Under the pieces are notes generated by a model. It saw only the letters and a program-made list of their open reading frames with translations. It did not search any database and was not told the DNA's origin. Position numbers and translations under genes: made by a program. Source: a virus. Taken from it: a stretch of DNA of 22,950 nucleotides. The stretch lies in IMG/VR virus record IMGVR_UViG_3300025128_000362, positions 1-22,950 of that record. One strand, given 5' to 3'. Shown piece after piece: positions 3,107 to 6,568 of this stretch; within the stretch, counting starts at the first letter, position 1; each line of letters begins with the position of its first letter.

Positions 3107-3333
3107 AAGCCTTTTTATTCTTAGTTTTACTTACACAGCAAGGTTTACATTACGAAAAAATACCAATTAAAAATTACACAAATTGTGATGATGCTTATGC
3201 AAGTAAAGCTACCTGGTATGATAACCCTAAATTTAAAGATGGCAATGGTCAGCTTTGGGGTTTTTATATTTACAAAAATAAACAGATAGTAGCTTCTTAT
3301 TGCAAAGACCAAGAGGGTAATTGGTTGCTATGA
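3103..3333 (+). CDS. small exported cysteine-containing protein
   Basis: The best start is ATG at 3103, which forms an ATGA overlap with the preceding stop and gives 76 residues; an upstream ATG at 3091 would add four. It begins MKAFLFLVLLTQQG, a short signal-peptide-like n- and h-region. After that the protein is polar, with two cysteines (in TNCDDAY and SYCKDQEG) that could form a disulphide in the periplasm. A WGFYIYKNKQIVASYC strand pair suggests a small beta domain. I do not recognise the family. Its coupling to a metallopeptidase-like gene and its likely export make a host-envelope role such as superinfection exclusion conceivable, but this is inference. Confidence 0.65.
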   Translation: MKAFLFLVLLTQQGLHYEKIPIKNYTNCDDAYASKATWYDNPKFKDGNGQLWGFYIYKNKQIVASYCKDQEGNWLL

Positions 3334-4160
3334 AAAAATTAAGAATATTAAGTTTAGGTGCTGGTGTTCAAAGTTCTACTTTAGCACTTATGATTCAAAA
3401 AGGTGAAATTGAAAATGTAACTGCTGGAATCTTTGCAGATGTAAAAGGTGAGCCAAAAGCAGTTTATGATTGGTTAGATTATTTGAAGACACAAATTACT
3501 AAATTTCCAATTTACATTGTTACATATAGAGATTTAAAACAAGATATATTAGATGCCTCTAAAGGTGAATTTAAAGCTTTTACAGCTCCATTTTATACAA
3601 AGAATTTAGAAACAGGAAAAAAAGGAATGCTTCGTAGACAATGTACAGCAGACTACAAGATAAAACCTGTACTACAAAAAATAAGAGAACTTCTAGGTTT
3701 AAAAAAAGGTGAGAGAAGAAAAGAGGGTACTGAGGTTGAACTGTTAATGGGCATATCTAAAGATGAAGTTCAAAGAATGAAAATAAATCCAATTAAATAT
3801 ATTAAAAATATTTATCCATTAATAGATAAAGATTTTAGAAGAACTCATTGTTTAACTTGGATGGAAAAAAATAATTATCCTAAACCCCCAAGATCAGCCT
3901 GTACTTTTTGCCCATTTCATTCTGCAAAAGAGTGGCTTGAAATTAAAAACAATAAAGAGGAATGGGATGAAGTTGTTGCCTTAGATAAAGCAATAAGAAG
4001 CCAGGAAAGATTTAAAGAAAAGAATAAAGGATCGGCAACATTAAAAGATGAAATTTATTTACACAATAGTTGCAAACCAATTGATGAAATAGATTTTGAT
4101 CCAAAAACTGATCAATTAGATTTATTTAATAATGAATGTGAGGGTTATTGTGGAATCTAG
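3330..4160 (+). CDS. PAPS-reductase-like PP-loop ATPase with cysteine cluster
   Basis: I chose ATG 3330 (276 residues), which makes an ATGA overlap with the previous stop; a TTG at 3321 is also in frame. The N-terminal SLGAGVQSST (residues 8-17) is the PP-loop of the PAPS reductase/N-type ATP pyrophosphatase superfamily, which activates substrates by adenylation. Cys105 (RRQCTADYKIKP), Cys174, and Cys191/Cys194 (PPRSACTFCPFHS) form a likely iron-sulphur or zinc site, a pattern I know from a widespread phage family annotated as phosphoadenosine phosphosulphate reductase. GISKDEVQRMK at 141 is also typical. The real substrate is unknown. With two DNA methyltransferases in the same operon, a role in nucleic-acid modification is more plausible than sulphate assimilation. 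Confidence 0.82.
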   Translation: MKKLRILSLGAGVQSSTLALMIQKGEIENVTAGIFADVKGEPKAVYDWLDYLKTQITKFPIYIVTYRDLKQDILDASKGEFKAFTAPFYTKNLETGKKGMLRRQCTADYKIKPVLQKIRELLGLKKGERRKEGTEVELLMGISKDEVQRMKINPIKYIKNIYPLIDKDFRRTHCLTWMEKNNYPKPPRSACTFCPFHSAKEWLEIKNNKEEWDEVVALDKAIRSQERFKEKNKGSATLKDEIYLHNSCKPIDEIDFDPKTDQLDLFNNECEGYCGI

Positions 4161-4400: not shown

Positions 4401-4910
4401 ATGATAGAAGTTAAATTAGATTTATACGATATTATGGCAGCTTCACAGACTGGGTTGCTTAGAGTTTTTGAGTCATTAAGATTAAAACAAGATTGGGGTC
4501 ATAACTATAAAGGTAGTGTAAATGACCAAATATCAAAATCAATTAGTGGTGCTTGTGCAGAACTTGCAGTTTGTAGGTACTTAGAAACAGAGTTTAACTT
4601 TCATGTTAATCATGGTGGTAAGGCAGATATAATTTGGCATGATGTGCATTTACAAGTTAGATCGCAGCTACCAAAAAGAAATAACAGTCTAATTATTAGA
4701 CCAAAAGGTAGTAAACCTAATGAAATTTACATTTTAGTCATAGATAAAGCACCCATTTTTGAAATACATGGTTTTATAAACAGCACCCATGTTTTAGGCA
4801 CAGATAGATTTTTAACTGACTTTGGTATTACTGACAGACCAAAAGTTCATTCACTAGGATTAGAAACTTTAACACCTATAAAATTTTTAAAGGATGGAGC
4901 ATGGAATTAA
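4401..4910 (+). CDS. PD-(D/E)XK-like phage protein
   Basis: This 169-residue protein has the layout SGACAELAVCRYL (about residues 49-61), GGKADIIWHDVHLQVRSQ (about 72-89), then strands LIIRP, YILVIDKAPIFEIHGFI and a final aromatic/leucine tail. This matches a common phage family in which an E-x-A-V helix is followed by a (P/A)D...VR core, a degenerate version of the PD-(D/E)XK nuclease core in which the usual E-x-K is Q-V-R. Catalytic activity is therefore uncertain. Its last 10 bases overlap the start of the cytosine methyltransferase, a coupling that invites comparison with restriction-modification pairs, but phages often carry this family without restriction activity. Confidence 0.6.
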   Translation: MIEVKLDLYDIMAASQTGLLRVFESLRLKQDWGHNYKGSVNDQISKSISGACAELAVCRYLETEFNFHVNHGGKADIIWHDVHLQVRSQLPKRNNSLIIRPKGSKPNEIYILVIDKAPIFEIHGFINSTHVLGTDRFLTDFGITDRPKVHSLGLETLTPIKFLKDGAWN

Positions 4911-5797
4911 ATGTTCTTGATTTATTTAGTGGCATTGGTGGTTTTAGTGTTGGTCTTGAGTCAACTAATAAATTTAAAACAATTGCCTTTTGTGAGCAAG
5001 ACAAGTTTTGCCAAAAGGTTTTACAAAAGCATTGGAAAGATATTCCGATACATGAGGATATTAAAAAATTAAATGGAACAAAAATTAAAGCAGATGTCAT
5101 TGTTGGAGGATTCCCATGCCAAAGTTTCAGTATTGCCGGTAAACAAAAAGGCAAAGATGATGAACGATATCTCTGGGATGAAATGTTTAGAGTCATTAAA
5201 GAGGTTAAACCCAGATGGATTATTGGCGAAAATGTCCAAAACCTTACTAACATCTCAAATGGAGCAATCTTGCAAGGAATTTACAATGATTTGGAATCTC
5301 AAGGTTACGAAGTCCAAACTTTTAATATTTCAGCTAGTTCGCAAGGAGCATGGCATAAGAGATCAAGAATATGGATCGTTGCTTCCAACACCCAATGCTT
5401 GGGATTCAGCAAGGGGTGCAAGAAGTCAGAAAAATTTAAGGGAAAAAAAACATCAAATAAATATTTTAACAGCAATCAAGGATTACAACTCAGAGCAACC
5501 AGTAATCAAATGGAATTATCCAACACCAAGAGCATCAGACCACAAGGATATGAGCTACAACACAACTTGGAAAATGGGCAAGAACTCACAAAACAGTTGT
5601 GCCAGACAAATACTAAAAAACAACAAACCTGGTGGGAAACTGAATCCAAACTTTCTGGAATTCCTTATGGGATTTCAACAGAACTGGACACAAATAGAGC
5701 TAACAGAATTAAAGCACTTGGAAACTCAATCGTACCACAGATTGTCACCGAAATTGGACAAGCAATCATTAAAGCAGAAGAAGAAATAAATGGATGA
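4901..5797 (+). CDS. dcm: C5-cytosine DNA methyltransferase (Dcm family)
   Basis: This 298-residue protein transfers a methyl group from S-adenosylmethionine to C5 of cytosine in DNA. The motifs are in canonical order: motif I DLFSGIGGFS (7-16), motif IV GGFPCQSFSIAG (69-80) with catalytic Cys73, motif VI GENV (109-112), motif VIII HKRSRIWIVA (152-161), and motifs IX/X NRIKALGNSIVPQ (268-280). A variable target-recognition region lies between about 162 and 262. An AAGGATGGAG sequence precedes ATG 4901. The start overlaps the nuclease-like gene by 10 bases and the stop overlaps the next ATG. No cognate endonuclease is certain, so it is probably an orphan protective methyltransferase. A long +1 frame runs inside it (see separate entry). 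Confidence 0.92.
   Translation: MELNVLDLFSGIGGFSVGLESTNKFKTIAFCEQDKFCQKVLQKHWKDIPIHEDIKKLNGTKIKADVIVGGFPCQSFSIAGKQKGKDDERYLWDEMFRVIKEVKPRWIIGENVQNLTNISNGAILQGIYNDLESQGYEVQTFNISASSQGAWHKRSRIWIVASNTQCLGFSKGCKKSEKFKGKKTSNKYFNSNQGLQLRATSNQMELSNTKSIRPQGYELQHNLENGQELTKQLCQTNTKKQQTWWETESKLSGIPYGISTELDTNRANRIKALGNSIVPQIVTEIGQAIIKAEEEING
5073..5789 (+). CDS. possible overlapping +1-frame gene within dcm
   Basis: A 238-codon frame lies wholly inside dcm in the +1 register. It is the longest unexplained open frame of the window and the only long one on the coding strand of a gene. It reads like protein rather than noise: EFTMIWNLKVTKSKLLIFQL (69-88), YGSLLPTPNAWDSARGARS (100-118), NYPTPRASDHKD (148-159) and GGKLNPNFLEFLMGFQQNWT (187-206). 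I recall these patterns (TWKxKxT, LLFQL, LLPTPxAxD, LNPxFVExLMGFPxxWT) from phage proteins annotated as DNA methyltransferase parts. Possible starts are ATG 5073 or 5094, neither with a strong Shine-Dalgarno. It could be a true overlapping gene, a frameshift product, or the fossil of an earlier frame. I cannot decide from sequence alone. Confidence 0.4.
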   Translation: MEQKLKQMSLLEDSHAKVSVLPVNKKAKMMNDISGMKCLESLKRLNPDGLLAKMSKTLLTSQMEQSCKEFTMIWNLKVTKSKLLIFQLVRKEHGIRDQEYGSLLPTPNAWDSARGARSQKNLREKKHQINILTAIKDYNSEQPVIKWNYPTPRASDHKDMSYNTTWKMGKNSQNSCARQILKNNKPGGKLNPNFLEFLMGFQQNWTQIELTELKHLETQSYHRLSPKLDKQSLKQKKK

Positions 5798-5967
5798 AAT
5801 TAGATATGTTTGGTGATCCTAAAAAAAATTGCTGTGTAAAAGATTGTACAGATGGAGCTGTCTTGTATGAAAACAATAGATATTACTGCCCAGACCATTA
5901 TGCAGAAAAGATATTAGAAATACCATTAAGTGAATTAGGTAAAGGTGGTGAAAAAGATGACGATTAA
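5794..5967 (+). CDS. small zinc-ribbon-like protein
   Basis: This short gene (57 residues) starts at ATG 5794 in an ATGA overlap with the dcm stop and ends at TAA 5965-5967, overlapping the start of the MT-A70 gene. The protein begins MKLDMFGDPKKNCCVKDC and continues with a YYCPDHYAEK segment. The CC-x3-C ... C-x2-H pattern (Cys13, Cys14, Cys18, Cys32, His35) is what a small treble-clef or zinc-ribbon protein would show. The C-terminus is acidic (GGEKDDD). Zinc-finger-like phage proteins of this size often act as DNA- or protein-binding adaptors. No specific family is recognised. The coupled overlaps on both sides support that it is translated. Confidence 0.65.
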   Translation: MKLDMFGDPKKNCCVKDCTDGAVLYENNRYYCPDHYAEKILEIPLSELGKGGEKDDD

Positions 5968-6568
5968 ACTGCCTAATAAAAAATACAATATTATTTATGC
6001 AGACCCAGCTTGGTCTTACAATGGTAAGTTACCACAAAGAGCTAAGGTGCAGCACTATCCTGTAATGCCAATTGAGGATATTTGTTCAATACCAGTTAAA
6101 GATATTACAGCAGATGATAGCATTTTATTTATGTGGGCAACTTTCCCATTACTGCAAGAGGGTTTAGATGTAGTTAAGTCTTGGGGTTTTGAATTAAAAA
6201 CTTGTGCCTTTGTTTGGATTAAAACTAATAAAAGAACTGATGTTAAGCAATCATCTTTTTTTCCAGTAGATTCATTTGATAGTTTTTGGGGGATGGGTGG
6301 TTGGACTAGGTCTAATGCAGAAATATGTTTGCTAGGTACTAAAGGCAAACCCAAAAGATTAGATAAAGGCATACACCAGGTTATTTATGAGCCTATTAGA
6401 GAACACAGTAGGAAACCTGATTGCATAAGGGAAAAAATCGTACAGCTTTGTGGGGATTTACCAAGATTAGAAATGTTTAGCAGAACAGTTACACCAGGTT
6501 GGGATATTTGGGGTAATCAAACAGATAAATTTAAACCTACTGCCGAAAACAAGGAGCTTAGAATTTGA
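5957..6568 (+). CDS. MT-A70-family adenine-N6 DNA methyltransferase
   Basis: I chose ATG 5957 (203 residues), which has an AGGTGG ribosome-binding sequence a few bases upstream; in-frame GTG codons at 5945 and 5948 are alternatives. The MT-A70 signature is clear: YNIIYADPAWSY (residues 10-21), whose DPAW is a variant of the D-P-P-W catalytic motif, then ILFMWATFPLL, a segment around AFVWIKTN, NAEICLLGTKGKPKR, HSRKPDCIREKI and the C-terminal RLEMFSR/PGWDIWGNQ block. Phage members methylate adenine N6 in DNA, protecting against host restriction or altering regulation. The Pro-to-Ala change in DPPW is seen in some active members as far as I recall. It follows dcm in the same operon. Confidence 0.9.
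   Translation: MTIKLPNKKYNIIYADPAWSYNGKLPQRAKVQHYPVMPIEDICSIPVKDITADDSILFMWATFPLLQEGLDVVKSWGFELKTCAFVWIKTNKRTDVKQSSFFPVDSFDSFWGMGGWTRSNAEICLLGTKGKPKRLDKGIHQVIYEPIREHSRKPDCIREKIVQLCGDLPRLEMFSRTVTPGWDIWGNQTDKFKPTAENKELRI

Follow-up and report, generated by a model that had tools for sequence, protein, structure and literature searches.

The dcm gene of the virus record IMGVR_UViG_3300025128_000362 very probably codes, from one stretch of DNA, for a two-subunit C5 methyltransferase in which a second, overlapping reading frame (B) would choose the site to be methylated. The whole stretch analysed, 22,950 nucleotides long, is called here the window. Frame A, the dcm gene itself (4901-5797, + strand), gave a product of 298 amino acids in the ORF list of the window and matched Pfam DNA_methylase (1e-48) and the PHROG family phrog_363 (9e-73). 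Frame B lies in the +1 register within it on the same strand (5073-5789), codes for 238 amino acids with a conserved core at about 5160-5699, and is predicted to give the beta chain. Searched alone, the B translation proved to have a family of its own, phrog_1008 'DNA methyltransferase' (E=8e-24), and showed no significant match in Pfam and NCBIfam.

An earlier note on this DNA had pointed to a 238-codon +1 frame at 5073-5789 as more open than an unused frame should be; the two ORFs are as it described them, and the openness is far above chance. The third frame of the window holds 24 stops across the B stretch. When the A protein was fixed and its codons were resampled from the phage codon usage, B received 15.2 stops on average and was open in 0 of 20,000 draws, and shuffling of the synonymous codons of dcm itself gave a mean of 5.2 stops with P(open)=1e-4. 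From sequence analysis, frame B is a selected overlapping gene; in its last 30 codons (about 5700-5789) it shadows motif X without constraint of its own. Directly 3' of dcm, we found also an MT-A70 family methyltransferase gene (window 5945-6568, Pfam 2.5e-26), so that the phage codes for two adjoining kinds of DNA methylase. A PAPS-reductase-like gene adjoins this type of dcm repeatedly in unrelated phages; it was recognised by eye in the window (3321-4160) and is annotated in L005 (2438-3112), L145 (3492-4364) and L146 (3303-4208).

The distribution of the C5 methyltransferase motifs between the two frames was then unequal. The catalytic core with motifs I-VIII, including PCQ, ENV and a QxRxR-like motif VIII, is in frame A (4901-5383, + strand; profile match at 4907-5383), with an AlphaFold pLDDT of mostly about 90-98. 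A phmmer search of the PDB with frame A gave matches to M.HhaI and M.HaeIII that cover residues 3-162 only, and residue 162, at which they end, is where the frame of interest changes. Motif X with its GNSIVP is again in frame A (NRIKALGNSIVPQIVTEIGQAIIKAE, 5702-5779, + strand), with a profile match, substitutions dominated once more by A third positions and a pLDDT of about 92-96. Motif IX was not found in frame A and is carried by B (LNPNFLEFLMGF). The main frame, described before as a coherent methyltransferase, thus has motifs I-VIII and X and lacks motif IX, and frame A alone does not provide one chain with both a conserved recognition domain and motif IX.

Two predicted recognition modules of frame B, at 5379-5516 (LLPTPNAWDSARGARSQKN..., + strand) and 5517-5639 (YPTPRASDHKD..., + strand), each begin with [LWY]PTPxAxD and change mostly at A position 1, which is B position 3. 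They are followed by motif IX (LNPNFLEFLMGFQQNWT, 5640-5690, + strand), identified by a profile match and conserved in B as LNPxWVEWLMGFPxGWT. The best PDB match of a profile of the beta C-terminus was the C5 DNA methyltransferase 4onq/4onj, a weak one (E=0.037), whose alignment places the B motif on motif IX and the next motif on motif X. In seven split loci (L048, L049, L051, L073, L110, L124 and L199), A stops shortly past motif VIII and motifs IX and X are both in B; the L048 B matches phrog_1008 (5.5e-31) and its end matches the A-family phrog_363. The earlier note was correct to see two known C-terminal types as frame-shifted forms of one another. Wherever motif X sits, A and B jointly carry one complete C5 methyltransferase motif set.

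Some loci depart from this arrangement. L034 and L038 have the A segment that precedes motif X (EPDxxRVAxGxKNR) after motif IX and without overlap, so loci differ also in whether motif IX overlaps the pre-X segment. A Paenibacillus polymyxa plasmid (L149, 2685-2945) carries two motif-IX repeats in B, like a duplicated end of a beta gene. Some B ORFs hold or run into additional sequence, ..TTIEHWFRKDK.. and then a stretch like EDWNKIK or ESWNIIK (L051 in frame B, L020 past motif IX), possibly a domain inserted among the recognition modules.

The layout was followed in 55 viral dcm relatives, annotated phage loci and 80 bacterial genome loci, these last picked solely by the B motif WVEWLMG (374 stretches, 324 confirmed), and three profiles (catalytic domain, motif X, B motif) were run over the loci. 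At 125 of 127 loci, B was in the +1 register of the catalytic domain. Stops in the +1 frame of relatives, which the earlier note had named as evidence against a gene, were rare, B being open at 124/127 loci and at 77/78 in a second set (80 IMG/VR loci, taken later by the B motif only); all 78 classifiable loci of this later sample had B in +1. Over the 17,686 recognition-region codons of the 127 loci, the third frame showed 1069 stops, A 127 (nearly all from a few split loci) and B 12; the later sample gave 951, 12 and 2, respectively. B without an adjoining catalytic domain was not found among the 127 loci and the later 78.

The bacterial carriers belong to Bacteroidota, Bacillota, Proteobacteria, Planctomycetes, Spirochaetes, Acidobacteria, Verrucomicrobia and others, and the same layout is present in E. 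coli Kagunavirus phages, in Bacteroides and Komagataeibacter phages and on a Paenibacillus plasmid. Among 5,426 E. coli genomes, 68 match on the chromosome; the three that were read (L151-L153) have the layout, L152 being a prophage copy (WP_001213771), and the annotation of the chromosomal copies shows frame A only. The phage phiEc3 (L143) carries the gene pair as well. Several Paenibacillus phage annotations give both frames as cytosine methyltransferases. Five copies of one locus (L101-L105) lie at different places of the Roseovarius chromosome OX638333.1. In-frame A-B fusions are known from Bacteroides; none was found among the loci, and the Bacteroides phages L145 and L146 keep B in +1. 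L136, L093 and L120 look like frameshifted copies; together with L053 and L001 they have a frame shift within A or B and are probably decayed genes or sequencing errors. Literature searches returned no description of the overlapping A/B family. The view of the earlier note that this could be an overprinted gene conserved in phages is thus supported by the family of its own, the openness and the selection described below.

Comparison of the window with its close relatives showed that up to about 5170 the A third positions are the ones that change, that 5171-5350 is nearly unchanged at every codon position, that from 5351 to 5710 the A first positions (B third positions) change, and that past 5710 to 5797 the A third positions change again. 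The rates by codon position pooled over 37 disjoint pairs (A1/A2/A3) were.139/.077/.359 5' of the B start,.149/.084/.208 in the overlap segment,.279/.089/.066 in the recognition region with motif IX, and.150/.080/.340 in motif X. Synonymous variation, whose reduction the earlier note expected of an overprinted gene, therefore decreases at A third positions from 0.36 to 0.21 at the B start and to 0.07 in the recognition region. The 34 pairs of the later sample gave the same pattern, with A1>A3 in 33/34 in the recognition region, and a finer substitution profile located the two frame switches where motif VIII and motif IX end. By this pattern, the coding passes from A only to both frames (B start to motif VIII), then to B only (target-recognition region and motif IX) and back to A only at motif X. 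Across the window's close relatives and 71 pairs overall, the substitutions indicate that purifying selection on B is ongoing, and the fossil of a past frame switch suggested before is ruled out by it.

In the putative dual-coding segment (5163-5380, + strand; A to motif VIII and the N-terminal region of B; A3 rate 0.208 vs 0.359 upstream), the synonymous codons of A are frozen. For 62 non-redundant loci across phyla, this freezing was confined to the overlap, with a mean of 0.51 vs 0.16 bits per column (p=1.8e-4). The frozen codons are Leu 5171 (CTC, 50/61), Leu 5270 (CTC, 46/53), Leu 5291 (TTG/CTG, 54/60) and Ala 5333 (GCT, 56/62), which argues that B is also translated 5' of motif VIII.

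We then examined the converse constraint, on frame A, in 76 non-redundant loci by resampling the synonymous codons of one frame. With A resampled, 114 B stops were expected and 0 seen, B being open in 76/76 loci. With B resampled, 555 A stops were expected and 1 was seen, A being open in 75/76 loci vs 0.4 expected. The A amino acids at 5384-5699 show no selection or conservation; A is kept open through the recognition region all the same, which argues that it is translated there although its amino acids are unconserved. The AlphaFold model of full-length A is confident in the core, M.HhaI-like by Foldseek (E=1e-14), and in the motif-X helix; its residues 172-228 and 232-241 stay under a pLDDT of 50. 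Frame A across the recognition region (5384-5699, + strand; pLDDT<50, 75/76 open) is thus predicted to be a linker, disordered where a recognition domain would sit.

Two candidate starts were considered for B on the + strand, ATG 5073-5075 and ATG 5160-5162, and either of them may be used. ATG 5073 has a strong Shine-Dalgarno in the sister phages L021, L022 and L025 and a weak signal in the window, just GAGGA about 14 nt upstream. ATG 5160 is preceded by AAAAAGG, and 48/53 loci use GAT for the A codon Asp 5159, which preserves this ATG. It was favoured at first because the third-position changes of A vanish there in the window's clade; as the sole start it was rejected, the cross-phylum Shine-Dalgarno data favouring 5073. 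Many relatives have a strong Shine-Dalgarno and an ATG or GTG about 90 bases upstream of the DDR codons, for example 'gtaaggaggataaATG' in L021 (window's clade) and 'acaaaggaggatttttATG' in L094. A Shine-Dalgarno of at least 6 bases was found at 10/43 candidate B starts vs 0.4% of the other ATG/GTG codons of the same genes, and one of at least 5 bases at 21/43 vs 3.6%, counts that take the best of few candidates per locus and somewhat inflate the enrichment.

In the two-subunit reading, one mRNA would have two starts, with B initiating internally in +1. Frame A would give an alpha chain in which the disordered linker joins the SAM-binding and catalytic core (I-VIII) to the motif-X helix. Frame B, presumably translated in the window's phage, would give a beta chain in which an N-terminal segment precedes the target-recognition modules (one to several) and motif IX, the modules and motif IX forming a small domain that reads DNA. 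We infer that alpha and beta would assemble on DNA, beta selecting the site and alpha transferring the methyl group, and that the unconstrained linker would let the motif-X helix of alpha reach its place. The AlphaFold model of B alone (pLDDT 64.5, pTM 0.28) is confident only in a hairpin and in the motif-IX helix, and a PDB profile search and Foldseek with B gave no match, so that the assignment of a recognition domain rests on the position between VIII and IX, on modularity and on motif logic. A chain that needs its partner to fold may give a poor model alone, and this is in itself no evidence. Masking of the phage's own DNA from host restriction is our guess for the role of the enzyme.

Among the other explanations, an independent overprinted gene, for instance anti-restriction or regulatory, beside an A that is the whole enzyme would agree with a B that folds poorly in the model and is without a solved homologue. 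We hold it very improbable, since A is without motif IX and its recognition region is unconserved and predicted disordered, B carries motif IX, with motif X in addition in the seven split loci, and B is never found without an adjoining catalytic domain. Programmed frameshifting, raised before as a possible source of a second specificity, would have the ribosome read A to motif VIII, slip +1 into B and return to A for motif X, so that a single chain results. The selected frame does change precisely where motif VIII ends and reverts where motif IX ends, and the composite would be a standard one-chain C5 methyltransferase. Such slippage needs no open A, yet A is open far beyond expectation (75/76 vs 0.4); B before motif VIII would be unconstrained, yet the synonymous sites of A are frozen there; many relatives' B has its own Shine-Dalgarno and ATG, and the A of the split loci ends just past motif VIII. 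Own starts, constraint before motif VIII and an A open throughout leave this reading disfavoured and, to us, very improbable.

The idea that B is a shadow, kept open and protein-like by A residues and codon bias, is hardly credible. A conservation does partly constrain the +1 frame, about 20/76 loci being open by chance given A; B is, however, open in 76/76, the recognition-region changes fall on B third positions (33/34 of the later pairs) and start signals are enriched, the codon-position test already refuting it. We give as little credence to a decaying B without present double use: a few loci (L136, L093, L120 and L053) look frameshifted or decayed, and the ongoing purifying selection in the window's relatives and in the 71 pairs already refutes it.

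We therefore return to the two-subunit enzyme, whose layout turns up repeatedly in E. coli prophages as well as in phages of marine, gut and soil habitats, in databases that mostly list only one of the two overlapping proteins. It would explain the low-complexity middle of many phage 'Dcm' proteins, correct many gene annotations and offer a natural system for the joint optimisation of two frames in one DNA. To our knowledge, long conserved same-strand overlaps in which one frame is a mere spacer and the other the specificity of its partner are rare. We think it rather likely that for a large class of 'Dcm' proteins, in phages, prophages and bacteria, the A-frame recognition region is a non-functional disordered linker and the true specificity lies in a modular +1 beta. 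If so, beta could be exchanged, act in trans or give one alpha several specificities, and specificity predictions and annotations based on frame A would be wrong for the whole class.

Among known systems, M.HhaI and M.HaeIII resemble the window in the catalytic core, since A residues 3-162 align with them (2e-24) and the model fits; unlike the window, they have the recognition domain and motifs IX and X in one chain and one frame. The PHROG table lists phrog_1008, the B family, as a separate methyltransferase family, its +1 position in dcm (phrog_363) being unmentioned. For EcoHK31I, Lee, Kam and Shaw reportedly described in 1995 a small chain in an alternative frame within the large-chain gene, and both chains are said to be required for activity. 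In the window, too, the gene of the large chain harbours the small chain in a different frame. Two C5 methyltransferases, M.AquI and M.EcoHK31I, are made of two polypeptides each, and fragment complementation has a precedent among these enzymes (PMC3404938). In M.AquI (CYCGRG), alpha holds motifs I-VIII and part of the variable region and beta holds the rest with IX-X, and in M.EcoHK31I (YGGCCR) the large chain has I-VIII, X and a predicted recognition domain and the small chain IX only (PMC3404938). The M.AquI division resembles the split loci L048, L051, L073, L124 and L199, with motif X in B, and differs from the window, whose alpha carries motif X and whose frames share about 540-715 bases. 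Like M.EcoHK31I, the window has I-VIII and X in the large chain and IX, by a weak match, in the small one; unlike M.EcoHK31I, where the recognition domain is predicted in the large chain, its recognition region is under frame B selection, and it belongs to a family that is spread widely over phages and bacteria, has modular arrays and in some members places motif X in B. Should specificity lie in beta throughout the class, the 1995 view that EcoHK31I has its recognition domain in the large chain may have to be revised. The window thus appears to be a variant of the M.EcoHK31I kind, likened to it by the description of that enzyme, with the breadth, the evidence for specificity in B and the motif-X swap being new here, and M.EcoHK31I would turn from an isolated oddity into a widespread enzyme architecture.
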